Origin: a virus
Virus record (IMG/VR): IMGVR_UViG_3300044732_000369
Span: 1-40,282 of that record
Length of the DNA: 40,282 nt
Reading direction: 5' to 3' (one strand)
Under the pieces are notes generated by a model, which saw only the letters and a program-made list of their open reading frames with translations, did no database searches and was not told where the DNA came from. The position numbers were made by a program, and so were the translations under genes. Numbering within the stretch: the stretch's first letter is position 1; each line of letters begins with the position of its first letter. This document shows positions 14,455 to 40,282 of this stretch, piece by piece.

Positions 14455-14638
14455 GGCATAACTCCTCTAGTTCATCATTAATTTCTATGTCTTTTGCAAA
14501 GGCATACTCGAAATATTTATCTCCGAGTATACCCAATAGTTCATACACTTCATCAGCAGATAGGCTAAGCCTAACACCTTGAAGTGTCAGTAACCAACCG
14601 TCCTTCCGGACTTCACTCTTGACTAGGCTAGTCAACAT
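14444..14638 (-). CDS. Hypothetical small protein
   Basis: A 64-aa protein. I chose the ATG at 14638 because it shares TGATG with the GATase stop; the frame upstream lies inside the GATase gene. The sequence MLTSLVKSEVRKDGWLLTLQ, then GVRLSLSADEVYELLGILG, suggests a short beta-hairpin plus helices. The C-terminus is acidic. The function is unknown. Confidence 0.55.
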   Translation of the reverse strand: MLTSLVKSEVRKDGWLLTLQGVRLSLSADEVYELLGILGDKYFEYAFAKDIEINDELEELCRES

Positions 14639-15462
14639 CAGTACTCCATTCCATTGTAGTTGTGCTGTGCCACAGTAGGATTGTAGCACAGGCAAGCGAC
14701 AGCGTGATCGTAACACTCAAGGCAAGAGTTACATACGGTACATACACCGTCATACAATCCTTCCTCTGTAACCTTACTCATACATACATAGCAGGTATAG
14801 TCAGCCTGTTCCAACTCTGCGGTTAGTGCCTTGCGATCTGCATCTAGTAGATCCTCGCTAGACCATAGCCCACGTGAGTAGTAACCCGAACCATAGAACG
14901 TGTACGAGTGCTTGTAACTAGAGTTAGACCACCATACATCCTTGTCCCACGTACCGAGATCCTCGTTGACAATGTACACAGAGTCACGCAACTCTGGTGC
15001 AGTAGTTAGGATAGCCAACTTACTACCGGCAGCCCAACCCTCTAACCTCTTGAATGAATCCTTGTCGTCAAGGGATTCGACACCTAGGTTAGGTAAGATA
15101 TCCTCTGCAAAGATGCGCGTGTCAGAACGCCGGTCACCCTGCTTGGGGTGGATAGGTAGCATACCGTTGTGACCAAGGATAATGTCCTTGCGACCACCTA
15201 CCCTGAATGGGTGAGCGTTCTCGATAATGCTATCTCCGTGCGTTGTGATACGAGCGTGATACATAGCAACAAAGTCAGTACCTGCACCCTCGAGTGCATC
15301 AAAGAACTTGTCGATAGTTTTCTGTGCATTCATACCACGACTCGTAATGATACGGTCGCCGTAGTGAATGGCATAGCCGAACCCGTCAGGGTTATTGTTG
15401 CTTGCATTAACAATGCTGTTGTAGTCAGGAACCTGACCCATTGTTACCATTAACAGACACAC
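14638..15462 (-). CDS. Class-II glutamine amidotransferase (Ntn hydrolase) with zinc-ribbon tail
   Basis: A 274-aa protein. The start GTG is followed by Cys2 (MCLLMV), the N-terminal nucleophile exposed after Met removal. NNPDGFGYA (23-31), MYHARITTHG (about 67-76) and LGHNGML (about 97-103) match the glutamine-binding and oxyanion elements of class-II amidotransferases. The C-terminal 70 residues add CxxC pairs (CYVC, CTVCNSCLEC), probably a zinc ribbon. The gene follows the amidoligase, with one GATC palindrome between them. The known pairing suggests GATase releases ammonia, or removes or transfers glutamyl groups, in step with the amidoligase. Confidence 0.8.
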   Translation of the reverse strand: MCLLMVTMGQVPDYNSIVNASNNNPDGFGYAIHYGDRIITSRGMNAQKTIDKFFDALEGAGTDFVAMYHARITTHGDSIIENAHPFRVGGRKDIILGHNGMLPIHPKQGDRRSDTRIFAEDILPNLGVESLDDKDSFKRLEGWAAGSKLAILTTAPELRDSVYIVNEDLGTWDKDVWWSNSSYKHSYTFYGSGYYSRGLWSSEDLLDADRKALTAELEQADYTCYVCMSKVTEEGLYDGVCTVCNSCLECYDHAVACLCYNPTVAQHNYNGMEY

Positions 15463-15484
15463 TTTAGTTTCTCCTTTTCTTGGT

Positions 15485-15500
15485 GATCATAACTATGATC
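15485..15500. promoter_or_regulatory. GATC palindrome operator, copy 1
   Basis: The core GATCATA-AC-TATGATC, flanked by T on the left and ACT on the right, overlaps the amidoligase stop codon and lies 23 bases before the GATase start. It is one of seven copies. Confidence 0.75.
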
Positions 15501-16725
15501 ACTCTGTGTTTTCATCTGGTGTTATTTGAAAGTCTGGCAAGTATTGTACCAGATCCGGATACTTACCTTGCTTGCGTACCCAAGAGGCAAACTCCTCAGG
15601 TCGTAGCATTACGCTAGCATTAGCACCGCTTCGTATGTCACGTGTGTACTCAACCGAAGCGTGGCAGAATTGAATGGCACTACGGACGCGCTCTACCTTG
15701 AGCGAACCCTTGAACATTCTAACCTCTACCGTGTGTGTATTCTGCAAGTTGACAGCGTTGTACCTATCGCCACCTCTAGCAGAACTGTGACGGCGTTTGA
15801 TAGTAAGCACGTTATCTATCTTAGCACCCTCATTAACGATACCATAGTGAGAGTTTCGACCAGCAATGTGGCGACACAGATTCTCATTACGGTTGATCAG
15901 ATAGGTGAACGCGAGCAAGTGAGTACGGTCAGTAAACGCTCGCCTATCTATGTGTACGTGTAGTCCGCAAGTACCGGCATTCCACGATCTGAACCCTGCA
16001 TCACGCAACTTGTCAAGCGTACCCCAATCGACGTGATCTTGGAAATACTCAAGCGTTGCAGGGTGAGTGACTATCTCGAAACCAAAGTTAAGTGATGAGT
16101 CTTCCTTGAGATACACAAAGTCACCCCAAGAATCTTTCATAGTTTCAGCACCCGAAGAATAGTCACCGCTAGCAGCCTCAACCTCTAACTCCATACCAAA
16201 ATACAGATGCTTGTCAGATGATCCGTGAAATACTGGCGTTGGTTTGTAACTGTAGTTGTGTACAAACTCAGAGTCAGGGTGACACATCTCGTCGTGCCAC
16301 TCATACTGATCACACATTGAACACCAGTTCGCCACTCTACCGATACAGCCATCACAGTAACAACTGTCACCACCACCAACATACCTAATGTCGTCAGTAG
16401 AAAAGATGCCATCACATCTCTCACACTCACGATAGTTCTCTGTGCAATCACCACAGTATTCACCGAGAGTATAGATACCACCGATCTCATTGTCTAAATG
16501 GTAGTCACCACAGTCAGCGCACTTGGTAGTGCAGGTGTCACAGGCATAGACATCTTCGTACGTAAACTCGCGAGTCGTGTAGTTCCAATGTCCTTTCTGT
16601 GTCTTGTAATGCCGTTCGTTATCGGCATCATAATCAAACGCATCACCACAAGAGTAACACGTTATCTCAACAATAACTTTGACAGACTCGTTATCACCAA
16701 TAACAGAGTCAATGATCTCAGTCAC
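15499..16725 (-). CDS. Amidoligase (GCS/COOH-NH2 ligase-like) with N-terminal zinc ribbons
   Basis: A 408-aa protein with GTG start at 16725 and AGGAG upstream. Residues about 20-150 hold many CxxC pairs (CYSC, CDTC, CADC, CGDC, CERC, CDGC, CSMC), a string of zinc ribbons. The catalytic part has FGMELEVE (176-183, metal-binding Glu residues), EDSS-x4-FEIVTHP (about 208-222), CGLHVHID (253-260) and a late VEVRMF strand. This is the amidoligase_2 pattern of the glutamine-synthetase/GCS fold. The family forms amide or peptide bonds using ATP, often beside a GATase as here. The target may be a protein side chain or peptidoglycan. The two palindromes around the gene suggest tight control. Confidence 0.82.
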   Translation of the reverse strand: MTEIIDSVIGDNESVKVIVEITCYSCGDAFDYDADNERHYKTQKGHWNYTTREFTYEDVYACDTCTTKCADCGDYHLDNEIGGIYTLGEYCGDCTENYRECERCDGIFSTDDIRYVGGGDSCYCDGCIGRVANWCSMCDQYEWHDEMCHPDSEFVHNYSYKPTPVFHGSSDKHLYFGMELEVEAASGDYSSGAETMKDSWGDFVYLKEDSSLNFGFEIVTHPATLEYFQDHVDWGTLDKLRDAGFRSWNAGTCGLHVHIDRRAFTDRTHLLAFTYLINRNENLCRHIAGRNSHYGIVNEGAKIDNVLTIKRRHSSARGGDRYNAVNLQNTHTVEVRMFKGSLKVERVRSAIQFCHASVEYTRDIRSGANASVMLRPEEFASWVRKQGKYPDLVQYLPDFQITPDENTE

Positions 16726-16740
16726 CGTTATCTCCTAACT

Positions 16741-16756
16741 GATCATAGTTATGATC
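16741..16756. promoter_or_regulatory. GATC palindrome operator, copy 2
   Basis: The core GATCATA-GT-TATGATC followed by ACT lies 15 bases before the amidoligase start and about 33 bases downstream of the likely transcription start, so a bound protein would block elongation (stoperator-like). The leader just before it can form GTTGGT-N13-ACCAAC. Confidence 0.75.
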
Positions 16757-17328: not shown

Positions 17329-17485
17329 ACCTCATCTCTTCTTCACACTTCTCCGAGCATACATACACTTCGTGGTAGTGGTCAAGCATTACGGGTATGT
17401 CGTGTTGCACAGACATAGGTTCTCTACACAGGAAGCACCACGCTTCTACGAAGCGATCATACTTATGATCATCTAATACAGTCAC
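17315..17485 (-). CDS. 56-aa zinc-motif protein
   Basis: The GTG start shares GTGA with the upstream stop. WCFLCREP and VCSEKCEEE give two CxC-type pairs (CxxC and CxxxC) 22 residues apart, with a His-rich middle (HDIPVMLDHYHEV); this looks like a treble-clef or ribbon zinc site. Codons 5-10 (the segment DDHKYD) are the GATC palindrome copy 3, so operator and coding sequence coincide. Confidence 0.7.
   Translation of the reverse strand: MTVLDDHKYDRFVEAWCFLCREPMSVQHDIPVMLDHYHEVYVCSEKCEEEMRYAYV
17455..17470. promoter_or_regulatory. GATC palindrome operator, copy 3 (inside a coding start)
   Basis: The core GATCATA-CT-TATGATC lies in codons 5-10 of the 56-aa gene. The right flank is AT rather than ACT, the only copy to depart from that flank. 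Confidence 0.7.
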
Positions 17486-17712
17486 TTGATACTCCTTAGG
17501 AAAGCGAACGAGCCACCATTATTGACAGCCTTTAACTGTGTTCTGAGAGAATCCACTGCTGTACCACGCAGGATTTTCTTTTGATCCTCCTCCGGTAGCG
17601 TGTTAAAGAGATGCACAAGTGGGTGACTCTTCACTAAGACAAAGGTACACTCCACCTCGAATGTAACTTTAGTTATCTGATCATACTTATGATCACTTGT
17701 TGGCTTAGCCAT
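17482..17712 (-). CDS. Hypothetical 76-aa protein
   Basis: The ATG at 17712 (MAKPTSDHKYDQITKV) overlaps the upstream stop by 8 bases. A beta-strand-rich start (VTFEVECTFVLVKSHPLVHL) is followed by helices (EEDQKKILRGTAVDSLRTQL). Codons 7-12 contain palindrome copy 4 and give the peptide DHKYD, also found in the next gene. No family is recognised. Confidence 0.6.
   Translation of the reverse strand: MAKPTSDHKYDQITKVTFEVECTFVLVKSHPLVHLFNTLPEEDQKKILRGTAVDSLRTQLKAVNNGGSFAFLRSIK
17679..17694. promoter_or_regulatory. GATC palindrome operator, copy 4 (inside a coding start)
   Basis: The core GATCATA-CT-TATGATC followed by ACT lies within the first dozen codons of the 76-aa gene. Confidence 0.72.
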
Positions 17713-18141: not shown

Positions 18142-18157
18142 GATCATAATTATGATC
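18142..18157. promoter_or_regulatory. GATC palindrome operator, copy 5
   Basis: The core GATCATA-AT-TATGATC followed by AC lies 16 bases before the first early gene and about 40 bases after the likely start of transcription, the same layout as copy 2. Confidence 0.75.
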
Positions 18158-18204: not shown

Positions 18205-18234
18205 ATCTTACCATATAGGTACATAGCCTGTCAA
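18205..18234 (-). promoter_or_regulatory. Early promoter P-left-1
   Basis: On the minus strand -35 TTGACA (18234-18229) and -10 TAAGAT (18210-18205) are separated by 18 bases. The spacer and -10 region are nearly identical to the promoter at 16797-16826. It is the main leftward early promoter. Confidence 0.75.
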
Positions 18235-18430
18235 GGATAAAATGCACCTATTTTTCCTGCACCTTTTACAGCACCTGCCCGTACCGTACACAGCACCTTC
18301 CCGCGCTCGCTCGCGCACCCCTGCGCCCGCACTCGCCTGTGTGTATGTGTATGTATGCGTATGCGTACGGGTGTGGGTGTGTGGGTGTGCCTATGTATGG
18401 GTGTGGGTGTACCGGTGGCTACGGGTGGGT
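18235..18430. other. GC-rich and GT-repeat gap without a gene
   Basis: The stretch has a GC-rich part (about 18290-18345, many GCGC and CTCGC units) and a purine/pyrimidine-alternating run of GTGTG/GTATG repeats (about 18343-18430). Frames on both strands give only low-complexity peptides (HTHTHTPTP, VCVCVRVWV), so I see no gene. The run could adopt unusual DNA forms or be a boundary of the control region. Confidence 0.6.
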
Positions 18431-18455
18431 GTTGCCTAAGTGCAACTAGGTTGCT

Positions 18456-18471
18456 GATCATAATTATGATC
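18456..18471. promoter_or_regulatory. GATC palindrome operator, copy 6
   Basis: With flanks, TGATCATAATTATGATCA is a perfect 18-bp palindrome, followed by CT. It sits inside the GTTGC palindrome array. Confidence 0.75.
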
Positions 18472-18673
18472 ACTTAGTGATCGTTGCTTATTGGTAACGC
18501 CTAGCCTTACGCCTAGCCCTAACCCGTAGGCGTTGCGTATTGGTAACGGGTAGCGCGTATCTAATCGGGTGATCGTGTTGCTAATGGGTAACGGTTACGC
18601 TTAGCGCGTAAGTCTGGCGCGTGTTGCGTATCTGTAACGCCTAGCCTTGTTGCGTACCTGCATCAAGTTGCCT

Positions 18674-18689
18674 GATCATAATTATGATC
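18674..18689. promoter_or_regulatory. GATC palindrome operator, copy 7
   Basis: This is the same perfect 18-bp palindrome as copy 6, again preceded by GTTGC and followed by CT. Confidence 0.75.
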
Positions 18690-18751
18690 ACTAAGAATTG
18701 TTGCGATCTTGCAACGGGTTAAGGCTCAAGAGTTGCCGATACGGTTAGTTA

Positions 18752-18765
18752 GTTGAACTTTCAAC
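18752..18765. promoter_or_regulatory. GTTGA-N4-TCAAC inverted repeat, copy A
   Basis: GTTGAACTTTCAAC is a near-perfect 14-bp palindrome, related to but distinct from the GTTGC family. A second copy lies at 18894. Confidence 0.5.
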
Positions 18766-18865
18766 AAGTTGGGCTGGCGTTGCCGGTATCTGGGGCAAAT
18801 AGGGGCAGAATCCGACACGCCCAAAAACCCTTGCAAATAAAGGGAAAAAAAAGTTTTCTCAAATG

Positions 18866-18895
18866 TTGCCCATTTTGGCTTTTCTCGTGTATGGT
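18866..18895 (+). promoter_or_regulatory. Weak candidate promoter for the HTH gene
   Basis: TTGCCC (18866-18871) and TATGGT (18890-18895) are separated by 18 bases and sit upstream of the gene at 18941. Both match the consensus only in part. The palindrome at 18894 overlaps the -10. Confidence 0.35.
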
Positions 18896-18907
18896 TGAGG
18901 TATCAAC
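18894..18907. promoter_or_regulatory. GTTGA-N4-TCAAC inverted repeat, copy B (candidate auto-operator)
   Basis: GTTGAGGTATCAAC overlaps the candidate -10 of the HTH gene, and a further GTTGA half-site follows at 18917. Binding here would repress the gene, so autoregulation is plausible. Confidence 0.5.
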
Positions 18908-18940
18908 TCAAACGGGGTTGATAGCAAAGGAAAAAACGAA

Positions 18941-19465
18941 ATGAAAAACGAAAAGGAAAAGGTAGGCGCGAAAGTTGCGCTTGTTGCTGAGGTCAAGAAA
19001 ATTGTTGCCAAAGAGCAACAGACGGTTGAATACATTGCAGGCATTCTCAAAGGGCTTGTAGATGCTGGACATTCACACCGATCCATTCAAGCAGAATGGG
19101 CAAAGCAGGCAGGGCGCAAGATCGCCATTGCCACGATCTCGCACCACGTCGCTATTGCTGACTCAAAGAGTGGCGCAAACGCTCAAGCCCTGCTCAAGGA
19201 ATTGCAGGGCAACAAGTTGAGTGTTGAGCAGGTTCGCACCTTGACACCTGCAAAGGCAAAGGAACTCGAACTAATGACCGCGCCAGTTCGCAAGGTTCGC
19301 ACACCTAAGCCAAAGGCAAAGGCAACCAGCGCACCTGCACCTGCTGAGCAGATCAACGCGATCAACAAGGCAATTCAGACAGGCAAGACATTGAGCGCAC
19401 AAGATCGCGCCAATGCGATCAAGGCAACTCAAGCCCTGCTTGAAATGCTAATCGCTACAAGTTAG
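18941..19465 (+). CDS. ParB/KorB-like HTH DNA-binding protein (monocistronic)
   Basis: A 174-aa basic protein with an ATG start. Residues 1-40 are a charged helix. Residues about 46-73 (SHRSIQAEWAKQAGRKIAIA, then TISHHVAIAD) look like a helix-turn-helix. LLKELQGNKLSVEQVRTLTP (about 84-103) resembles the ParB/KorB segment after its HTH. A KPKAKATSAPAPA linker leads to a short helical domain (130-174), perhaps for dimerisation. The ParB N-terminal CTPase motifs are absent, and no ParA is encoded. The gene points away from the early operon, has its own terminator and is flanked on both sides by 16-bp palindromes, so it probably binds them as repressor, partition or origin protein. Its codons are richer in GC than the late genes. 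Confidence 0.65.
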   Translation: MKNEKEKVGAKVALVAEVKKIVAKEQQTVEYIAGILKGLVDAGHSHRSIQAEWAKQAGRKIAIATISHHVAIADSKSGANAQALLKELQGNKLSVEQVRTLTPAKAKELELMTAPVRKVRTPKPKAKATSAPAPAEQINAINKAIQTGKTLSAQDRANAIKATQALLEMLIATS

Positions 19466-19479
19466 CAACAAATAGGAAT

Positions 19480-19506
19480 CCCCCACCTTCGGGTGGGGGT
19501 TTTCTT
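19480..19506 (+). terminator. Intrinsic terminator with UUCG loop
   Basis: CCCCCACC-TTCG-GGTGGGGG is a perfect 8-bp stem with the very stable UUCG tetraloop, followed by TTTTCTT. It ends the single-gene transcript of the HTH protein. Confidence 0.92.
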
Positions 19507-19530
19507 ATGCCCAAAAATAGTTGGCGAATA

Positions 19531-19667
19531 GTTGCGAATCGGTAACACCAGATAGTCAAGCATTAACATTCATTCGTTGTTTATTAACACCACCACCCCC
19601 CTCGGTGGGGTAGGGGGGGAGTGTTGCGTTTACGCAACGGGCAGGGCAGGTGTTGCCTTTAGGCAAC
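19531..19667. repeat. Array of GTTGC-N6-GYAAC palindromes, right arm
   Basis: Copies lie at 19531 (GTTGC-GAATCG-GTAAC), 19623 (GTTGCGT-TT-ACGCAAC, perfect) and 19652 (GTTGCCT-TT-AGGCAAC, perfect). The last two are 29 bases apart. Between them and the terminator lies a C-rich/G-rich run (about 19588-19620) that can pair with itself. No gene is seen. Confidence 0.8.
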
Positions 19668-19945
19668 GTATGACCCACCGGTTATTAAGGTCGGTGGAAT
19701 GGTATATACATTACTCTAACATATTATTTTCTGCTGTGTTTCCGTACAGTTACTGGGTTTTATTAATGTGACGTAAATTACTTTATAAATTTTTGGTAAC
19801 AAATCGTTACAGGTGCTTTATAACTGGGTTAGTATATATGTAAGGTTATTTTATGCGAACCCTGTTGGTTCGCTAGTATATAATACACCGCTTGGTGCGG
19901 TGTTGTATGTGTGTTGTATTTGAGTGTTGTTTAGGATGTGTTTCG
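19668..19945 (+). promoter_or_regulatory. Late control region with candidate late promoter
   Basis: An AT-rich gap before the terminase. It holds a CCACCG-N11-CGGTGG hairpin (about 19676), the inverse repeat GTAAC-N5-GTTAC (19796-19810), two TGGGTT direct repeats, the hairpin GCGAACC-N5-GGTTCGC, a perfect TATAAT at 19879-19884 and the hairpin ACACCGC-N5-GCGGTGT (19885-19903) just after it. No TTGACA-like -35 lies at normal spacing, so an activator or the phage sigma-like factor may be needed. Confidence 0.55.
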
Positions 19946-21838
19946 GTGGCTGCTAGGACAGGTGCATTGCACCATACGGTAATTAAGCAGAATGAGGACC
20001 AAGCGAAATTTCTGGCTTCTGTAGCGTCAGGTGTATCAGAACACGCTGCGCTGGGTATAGTAGGTCGTAAACCTGCTGCCTTAAAGACGTGGCTTCGGGA
20101 CCCTAAGTTTGCTATGAAACTTGAGGATGCGCGGGGCGAGTCTAATGCCCTTATGACCGAGACTCTGGTTAATGGCAAGAAGATTGACTTCGCCACCTTC
20201 TCCAAAGAGTTCCTGGGATCTGAGGTGTTTCCGCACCATCAGTCTTGGATCGACGTTTTAGAGGGGCGCGAACCGTCCTGGCTCCACCCGTCTATGACTT
20301 TTGAGCCAAGCAATCGCCGCCGTATGTTAATCAACGTACCGCCCGAACATGCTAAGTCTACGGTTTTAACGGTTGGCTACGCCACCTACCGTATTGCTAT
20401 GGATCCTAACATCCGCATCGTTATCGTTTCCCAAACCCAGACCCGTGCCAAGGAATTCTTGTATTCCATCAAACAACGTCTGACAGAAGACAACTGGGCT
20501 AAACTCCAAGGTGTCTATGGACCAGCCGGTGGCTGGAAGGAAACCGCAGATCAATGGACTGCCGACCGTATCTACTTGGAACGTTCATCTGGCGAGAAGG
20601 ACCCAACCGTCCAAGCCATTGGTATGGGGCAACAGATTTACGGTACTCGCGCAGACCTGATTATTTTGGACGACGTGGTCACTACTACCAACGCCCACGA
20701 ATGGGAGAAGCAACTCAACTGGTTGCAAAAGATGGTTATTACCCGTGTCGGTGCAACCGGTATGCTCATTATTGCAGGGACGCGAGTTTCCTCTGTAGAC
20801 CTCTACAAGGAGGTCCGTAACCCAGATAACTGGTCTGGTGACAAATCCCCCTTTACTTATTTGGCTATGCCAGCAGTTCTAGAGTTCGCTGATAAAAAAG
20901 AAAACTGGAAGACGCTCTGGCCCATCTCCGATCGTGTATGGGATGGCGCGGATCCAGATAACGAAGATGACTCAGAACTTTTAGTACAGGACGAAAATGG
21001 ATACTACCCTAAATGGGATGGAAAACGCCTCTTCCAACGACGCAGTGAGGTTAACCCATCTACATGGGCTCTCGTATACCAGCAGCAAGATGTCGAAGAA
21101 GACGCGATCTTTCCCCCTGCGCTTGTTAACTCCTGTGTTAACCGGATGCGCAAGCCTGGTCCTCTCAATATGGGCGCGCCTGGACATCCATCGGGAGGAC
21201 AATGGGTAACCATCCTGGGCTTTGACCCTGCTATGGCAGGTCATGCTGCTATGGTTGCTTATGCCATAGAGCGTGAGTCCGGGGAGCGTATGGTTCTAGA
21301 CGTGCATAACATGGCTGATCCAACCCCTCAAAAGATTAGAGCACTCATGGAAGACTGGGTGCTTAAGTTTAGACCTATAGAATTACGCGTTGAAATCAAC
21401 GCACACCAGAAAGCCTATTCCCTAGACGAGGATCTGCGGATGTGGATGGCTAATCGTGGTGTACAGATGAGAGAACACTTCACCGGTAAGAATAAGTGGG
21501 ATGTTAGTTTCGGTGTGGCTTCCATGTCGAATCTCTTCGGTACAATGCGCGATGGCAAATTCATTGGGGGTAATCTAATTACCCTACCGGATGCAAGTAA
21601 CGAGCATATCAAGGCTCTTATAAACCAGTTAATTACCTGGAAACCAGATACCAAGAACAAGACTGACGTAGTTATGGCTCTTTGGTTCTGTGAGATCAGG
21701 GCTAAGGAACTGGTTCAAAGCAGCATGAATCGAGTTCATCACATGAACTCAAGGTATGCAACTAGAAAAAATATGTCCCAGCGAGCAGTTATTGATTTAG
21801 ATGAACTTGCTGCAGATCAACAAGTAATTTATATTTAG
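19946..21838 (+). CDS. terL: Terminase large subunit with N-terminal HTH
   Basis: A 631-aa packaging motor. I chose GTG 19946 (MAARTGALHHTVIKQ) with AGGA upstream; the frame opens at 19892 but those 18 residues are Cys/Val-rich and unlikely. Residues about 12-65 (QAKFLASVASGVSEHAALGI, then VGRKPAALKTWLRDP) resemble the HTH of small terminase subunits. The ATPase has PPEHAKST (Walker A, about 131-138) and DLIILDDV (Walker B, about 236-243). The RNase-H-like nuclease begins near GFDPAMAG (about 425), with later acidic residues (VEINAHQ, KTDVVMAL). No separate small terminase gene is seen; the N-terminal domain may replace it. Confidence 0.93.
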   Translation: MAARTGALHHTVIKQNEDQAKFLASVASGVSEHAALGIVGRKPAALKTWLRDPKFAMKLEDARGESNALMTETLVNGKKIDFATFSKEFLGSEVFPHHQSWIDVLEGREPSWLHPSMTFEPSNRRRMLINVPPEHAKSTVLTVGYATYRIAMDPNIRIVIVSQTQTRAKEFLYSIKQRLTEDNWAKLQGVYGPAGGWKETADQWTADRIYLERSSGEKDPTVQAIGMGQQIYGTRADLIILDDVVTTTNAHEWEKQLNWLQKMVITRVGATGMLIIAGTRVSSVDLYKEVRNPDNWSGDKSPFTYLAMPAVLEFADKKENWKTLWPISDRVWDGADPDNEDDSELLVQDENGYYPKWDGKRLFQRRSEVNPSTWALVYQQQDVEEDAIFPPALVNSCVNRMRKPGPLNMGAPGHPSGGQWVTILGFDPAMAGHAAMVAYAIERESGERMVLDVHNMADPTPQKIRALMEDWVLKFRPIELRVEINAHQKAYSLDEDLRMWMANRGVQMREHFTGKNKWDVSFGVASMSNLFGTMRDGKFIGGNLITLPDASNEHIKALINQLITWKPDTKNKTDVVMALWFCEIRAKELVQSSMNRVHHMNSRYATRKNMSQRAVIDLDELAADQQVIYI

Positions 21839-40037: not shown

Positions 40038-40282
40038 ATGGTAGCAAAGAAAGACCCTCGTCTAGCACGTGCCGGTGTTTCTGGCTACAATCAGCCAAAG
40101 CGTACACCTAGCCATCCAACCAAGTCACACGTAGTTGTGGCTAAGGTTGGAGATCAGGTTAAGACTATTCGCTTTGGTCAGCAAGGTGTGTCTGGCTCCC
40201 CTAAAAAATCAGGGGAGTCAGCAGCCTATGCTGCACGTAGACGGTCATTCAAGGCACGTCACGCATCTAATATTAATAAAGG
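40038..40282 (+). CDS. Small basic phage protein, 5' part (gene spans the cut)
   Basis: The start ATG at 40038 gives MVAKKDPRLARAGVSGYNQP, and the frame runs through VKTIRFGQQGVSGSPKKSG off the end of the window. Joining to position 128 gives about 95 aa in total, ending at 170. VSGYNQPKRTPSHPTKSH is a typical motif of small conserved proteins near environmental phage structural genes. The function is unknown. Confidence 0.8.
   Translation, partial: MVAKKDPRLARAGVSGYNQPKRTPSHPTKSHVVVAKVGDQVKTIRFGQQGVSGSPKKSGESAAYAARRRSFKARHASNINK
40156..40282. repeat. Terminal direct repeat (right copy)
   Basis: Identical to bases 1-127. See the left copy. Confidence 0.95.

Follow-up and report, generated by a model that had tools for sequence, protein, structure and literature searches.

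A candidate repressor-operator unit interleaved with a putative packaging region upstream of the terminase gene of a likely freshwater actinophage

We find that a cluster of GTTGC-N6-GYAAC palindromes surrounding a lone helix-turn-helix (HTH) gene in an uncultured viral genome is conserved irrespective of the protein encoded by that gene, and that a different palindrome, GATCAT-N4-ATGATC, co-varies with the protein. The region between the leftward early operon and the large terminase gene (TerL) probably contains two interleaved units, one made up of a repressor and its GATCAT operators, and the other of GTTGC sites concerned with packaging. The positions, conservation and co-variation of the sites, and the match of a sequence motif to known terminal repeat ends, can be read directly from the genomes compared.

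Packaging by way of terminal repeats and repressors with multiple operators are both established kinds of system; within the scope of our tests, novelty at the level of variants lies in the protein family, the GTTGC array and the diversified operators of freshwater actinophages. For a large group of uncultured actinophages from freshwater, the analysis predicts where the genome ends, and the prediction was checked on the known ends of cultured relatives. Moreover, what looks like a repressor/operator module, diversifying as immunity systems do, is carried by many such phages, among which no integrase was seen; whether phages of abundant freshwater actinobacteria show temperate or immune behaviour thereby becomes testable. 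A natural mistake is also corrected, in that repeats bracketing a DNA-binding gene need not be the sites of that gene's product.

Genome layout and the GTTGC sites

The window analysed here is the whole IMG/VR record of 40,282 bases, the ends of which (1-127 and 40156-40282) form an exact 127-bp repeat, giving a closed circle of 40,155 bp; this overlap is compatible with, but not proof of, a terminal repeat duplicated at the physical ends. Leftward genes span 18126 to approximately 6.9 kb and include small genes as well as those for an amidoligase, a GATase-like protein, WhiB, an exonuclease, a DnaB-like helicase, RusA, a primase, a phosphoesterase and a sigma-like protein, and rightward genes start with TerL (19892-21838, + strand; PHROG 38, E 6.5e-62). 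This TerL is 54% identical to that of the Planktophila phages F5 and E7, which were the first phages to be isolated on Ca. Nanopelagicales (PMC10202952), and approximately 45% identical to those of Streptomyces Beephvirinae (44-47% identity over 83-97%), and the host is likely to be a freshwater actinobacterium. The peptide patterns used to search genome assemblies for TerL relatives returned none. Before TerL, a promoter-like block CGTTACAGG..GGGTTAGTATAT (CGTTACnGG..GGGTTAGTATAT; 19805-19838, + strand) is strongly conserved across the family; it is probably a late promoter, perhaps read by the sigma-like phage factor. No small terminase was identified, the 40,282-base record contains no DnaA boxes and, in agreement with the original prediction, neither a ParA nor an integrase is present among the approximately 30 ORFs (a subset of all ORFs) scanned against PHROGs.

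Ten exact matches to GTTGC-N6-GYAAC exist, all of them within 18431-19667 and none elsewhere in the record, compared with a mean of 0.009 and a maximum of 2 in an order-1 Markov simulation of 18301-19700 (n=5000). The palindrome cluster is consequently real, and the earlier count of at least nine elements, six to the left and three to the right of a 174-aa gene at 18941-19465, is borne out by the exact positions, with one further site, inside the gene, having been missed. The left array (all sites + strand) comprises a first site at 18431-18446, kept in L003-L007, four asymmetric GTTGC..GTAAC sites (18483-18498, 18532-18547, 18577-18592 and 18623-18638) and a sixth site at 18700-18715, with spacings of 52, 49, 45, 46 and then 77 bases, and a degenerate copy with one mismatch stands at 18649-18664. 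The site within the gene (19004-19019, + strand) is found in four of five close relatives and lost in L007. To the right of the gene, also on the + strand, are an exact site at 19531-19546, which ends 8 nt before the predicted left end of a terminal repeat (see below), and two packaging-proximal inverted repeats, GTTGCG-TTTA-CGCAAC (19623-19638) and GTTGCC-TTTA-GGCAAC (19652-19667), 90 and 61 bp before the predicted right cut.

The left sites and the pair closest to TerL recur in L003-L007 with nearly unchanged spacings, and GTTGC sites are found upstream of TerL in L009, L043, L107, G015, L032, L038, L111 and L131, whatever regulator is encoded. The sites are independent of the protein, because they are retained in L009, where the HTH protein is only 31% and TerL 96% identical, and in L043, L107 and G015, whose regulators lack detectable similarity to the window protein (P0001) and have other operators. 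It had originally been suggested that gene and GTTGC sites pair in the manner of parB and parS, so that GTTGC and the lone protein bound to it would make a single-protein centromere or maintenance system. The clustering of palindromes around an HTH gene and a weak ParB/KorB fold match speak for this reading, but the sites stay constant while the protein diverges or is replaced, they do not bracket the regulator gene in L107 and G015 (where it lies outside the cluster), a different palindrome co-varies with the protein, and the predicted structure of P0001 consists of an HTH region and a C-terminal helical hairpin only; we therefore regard it as highly improbable. Furthermore, neither a ParB-family profile, nor a nearby ParA among the ORFs scanned, nor protein-specific sites of a ParABS system were found in the window. 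Among host genomes, 17 matches to GTTGC arrays were considered and set aside, none being homologous to window genes, and the one opened in detail (L231) proved to be a coding repeat.

The regulator gene and its candidate operators

P0001 (18941-19465, + strand, 174 aa), the proposed repressor, is modelled by AlphaFold with a confident HTH core (pLDDT ~90) and a less certain C-terminal helical hairpin, and its gene is followed by a terminator-like hairpin (19480-19499, + strand). The earlier description of the gene as ParB/KorB-like survives as a weak HTH fold match, the best Foldseek matches in the PDB being Spo0J (1vz0; prob 0.91, E 0.12) and RK2 KorB (1r71; prob 0.72), yet it finds no echo in sequence, since P0001 has no convincing match in Pfam (including ParB/KorB), PHROGs, NCBIfam, PDB sequences or phage genomes. 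KorB acts as a repressor that binds palindromes; unlike KorB/ParB, the P0001 model shows no N-terminal CTP-binding domain. A sister regulator, in L013, passes the Pfam LacI HTH cut-off, profile comparison with hhalign did not show homology between P0001 and sister regulators, and the A4 and A5 regulator groups are probably related.

The palindrome GATCATAATTATGATC (GATCAT-N4-ATGATC, 16 bp), listed in the original prediction as a first family in the same stretch, proved to be the family associated with the gene. Seven copies, which we treat as candidate operators, occur in the early region between 15485 and 18689, at 18142-18157 (16 nt before the ATG of the first leftward gene), 18456-18471, 18674-18689, 17679-17694, 17455-17470, 16741-16756 (16 nt before the amidoligase gene start) and 15485-15500 (23 nt before the GATase-like gene start), such that three of the seven stand 16-23 nt before the starts of clear early genes. 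The operator at 18142 also sits downstream of a predicted leftward early promoter, TTGACA-N18-TAAGAT (18205-18234, - strand), which is a consensus match only (10/12). The amidoligase and GATase-like genes form a pair in the early operon (14638-16725), with a GATCAT operator in front of each.

Within the window group (TerL 95-100%), genomes in which the protein is 88-100% identical carry GATCAT, two at 75-81% carry GATTAT, and L009, at 31%, carries GATTGT. Distant relatives with a regulator before TerL possess their own families of similar geometry (CTAACA, CTAACG, CTGACG, GTATCC, GTATCT, CTATAC and ACTTTA, the last with a gap of 2 bp), of which GTATCC reaches 14 copies in L107, while in G007, G009, E7 and F5 we saw neither such a regulator gene nor a comparable palindrome family. 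In a comparison of 19 genomes, operator identity is correlated with protein identity (r 0.77; partial r 0.65 given TerL), and the correlation of TerL with operator given protein is 0.04. A permutation test yielded no value as high in 10,000 trials, a result to be read with care given that the genomes are related. The contrast within groups at near-identical TerL is a stronger argument than the permutation value: in eight genomes with TerL 94-98% identical, CTAAC[AG] accompanies M[TA]VSRY helices in four and CTGACG accompanies KTIGRW helices in the other four. P0001 thus most likely pairs with GATCAT-N4-ATGATC, not with GTTGC, the assignment of these sites as cognate being by co-variation only, and it resembles a repressor of the heteroimmunity type whose operators are scattered. 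The immunity role suggested for the gene at the outset is accordingly plausible, whereas single-protein maintenance through GTTGC is at odds with the co-variation of another palindrome.

A further possibility is that P0001 is the small terminase and the GTTGC elements its recognition sites, as might be expected of an HTH protein encoded directly upstream of TerL amid repeats around a packaging site. However, P0001 is not conserved together with TerL: in the window group it falls to 31% while TerL is 95-99% conserved, and between some members of the 76% TerL group identity is below 25%, the gene there lying on the opposite strand. The protein was also not seen before TerL in the Planktophila phage E7, and the co-varying sites extend into the early operon, such that we consider this role most improbable.

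Two features of the regulator deserve mention in their own right. The place of the gene before TerL is constant while its strand is flipped between groups, and the last 40 residues of P0001 (19343-19462) are near-identical in close relatives while the HTH part is variable, which suggests domain-wise divergence or recombination.

Predicted terminal repeat upstream of TerL

A direct terminal repeat of 158 bp is predicted at 19555-19712, with a left cut at AGATA|GTCA and a right cut at ACATT|ACTC, placing the genome end of the window at 19554|19555 and 19712|19713. The left-end motif, A[CT]A|GTC[AC], is present at 19550 (AGATAGTCA), and the right-end motif, ACCC..GTTnTTAA-N22/23-nA[CG]TC, has its best match in the entire genome upstream of TerL, at 19712, where it forms part of a conserved right-end block, TGACCC..GGTTATTAA-N23-TACTC (19671-19716, + strand). 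Five Streptomyces beephviruses have terminal repeats of 253-276 bp with end sequences in common; the 253-bp repeat of FlowerPower was determined from sequencing (PMC9753666).

The right-end motif consists of three blocks with weights from 18 freshwater sequences, mainly of the 68% TerL group, and was scanned over both strands of whole genomes; its design postdates sight of the FlowerPower end, and the comparison with cultured phages is therefore blind in weights but not in design. Its best match coincides with the exact right end of the repeat in FlowerPower, Manuel, ToriToki and Stella, four of five cultured phages (these four being related to each other), with a margin of 6.7-16 bits over the next match. 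In the same proportion of cultured phages, A[CT]AGTC[AC] is unique within the repeat and the 600 bp upstream of it, and falls exactly at the left end. In Abafar (L258), the right-end motif is found at 255 as against a deposited repeat of 396 bp, and the left motif is absent; the annotated terminus may be off. The best match also lies upstream of TerL in G001-G004, G015, E7 and F5, while in G005 and G014 it lies elsewhere in the genome, the place upstream of TerL being lower-ranked in G014 and missed in G005. From left motif to right cut the distance is 158-176 bp in most of the GTTGC carriers and 76% group members that have the left motif, and approximately 198-207 bp in some others. Two other approaches were abandoned: a two-block model from five Streptomyces ends missed the freshwater site except in F5, and cohesive ends deduced from fixed contig ends were rejected, since the contig ends found upstream of TerL differed between relatives.

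In GTTGC carriers, the pair of sites closest to TerL consists mostly of perfect 6-4-6 inverted repeats, which start 89-96 bp and 61-73 bp ahead of the right cut. The 76% TerL group has a single inverted repeat in the same place (-89 to -93) with compensatory stem changes, and essentially no array copies matching the changed stems beyond it. Given that the motif finds known repeat ends and that the inverted repeats keep a fixed distance from the cut, the GTTGC sites therefore most likely mark the packaging or genome-end region. We judge it likely that the pair nearest TerL serves packaging, while for the upstream array, the weakest step in our reading, the case for the same function is evenly poised.

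Compensatory stems (GTCACC/GGTGAC, GGCATC/GATGCC and GTCGGC/GCCGAC) with A/T-rich loops would also be expected if the inverted repeats formed hairpins in a leader RNA that controls TerL expression. This is very unlikely, in that the conserved promoter-like block (19805-19838) is downstream of the repeats, which have no Rfam match and are tied in position to the predicted cut. Alternatively, the array may be a replication origin, in which oriented iterons and inverted repeats are bound by an initiator and the packaging site is merely adjacent. The asymmetric sites (GTTGCKWATNKGTAAC) are indeed mostly in one orientation, 45-57 bp apart, and share a half-site with the inverted repeats, and cumulative GC skew has its minimum close to 18 kb. 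However, GC skew also tracks divergent transcription, the predicted terminal repeat contains two of the sites, whose distance from the predicted cut is fixed, no initiator gene was recognised, no phage-encoded protein specific to GTTGC carriers was seen, and relatives without the array retain replication genes, all of which leads us to consider an origin unlikely.

Proposed mechanism and comparison with known systems

The following account of DNA binding, cleavage and repression, and of the factor that binds GTTGC, is what we infer from these patterns. P0001, probably as a dimer, would bind the 16-bp GATCAT-N4-ATGATC sites, several of which stand just before early-gene start codons and one downstream of the predicted early promoter, and would thereby block early transcription, resulting in immunity of the heteroimmune kind. 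The terminase would cut at A|GTCA (19554|19555) and ATT|ACTC (19712|19713) to generate the 158-bp terminal repeat, with the GTTGC inverted repeats 90 and 61 bp before the right cut marking the packaging or concatemer-junction region, and a small terminase or equivalent protein probably recognising the GTTGC sites. On the linear genome, the oriented GTTGC array would then occupy the right end without being part of the repeat, and the P0001 gene would fall between array and terminal repeat. A more speculative extension, which we think rather unlikely, is that integrase-less freshwater actinophages persist as non-integrated prophages, with a rapidly diversifying repressor for immunity and cis-only maintenance sites, namely the GTTGC array or, in sister phages, a bacterial parS that borrows the host ParABS.

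The closest known counterparts of the predicted end are the Streptomyces Beephvirinae (FlowerPower, Manuel, Stella and ToriToki), which resemble the window in TerL (~45%), gene layout and motifs at both repeat ends, but have repeats of 253-276 bp as opposed to the 158 bp predicted here, carry repeats of other sequence in and near the terminal repeat, and have no annotated HTH gene directly before TerL. The T7 concatemer junction has a terminal repeat of approximately 160 bp with short repeat arrays flanking it, and resembles the prediction for the window in both respects; its sequence is unrelated, and the likeness is by description only.

The repressors of cluster A mycobacteriophages have many genome-specific sites, with site and repressor diverging together and giving rise to heteroimmunity, and these sites are asymmetric and bound by a monomer (PMC6550527, PMC9283540). 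The window is similar in having an HTH regulator with many early-region sites that diverge together with it, but differs in its 16-bp palindromes, in the lack of a match between P0001 and those repressors, and in that no integrase or parABS was seen. The parABS systems of RedRock-type extrachromosomal mycobacteriophages consist of 8-bp direct repeats and a ParA (PMC7157519); the window likewise has repeat clusters near the gene for a DNA-binding protein, but no ParA came to light and its repeats do not go with the protein.

A separate observation concerns four sister phages. The exact 14-bp core of the bacterial parS (GTTTCACGTGAAAC), found nowhere else in the loci searched, occurs in L011 (7406), L016 (9), L019 (5667) and L034 (3267), in each case upstream of TerL and just outside the predicted terminal repeat.
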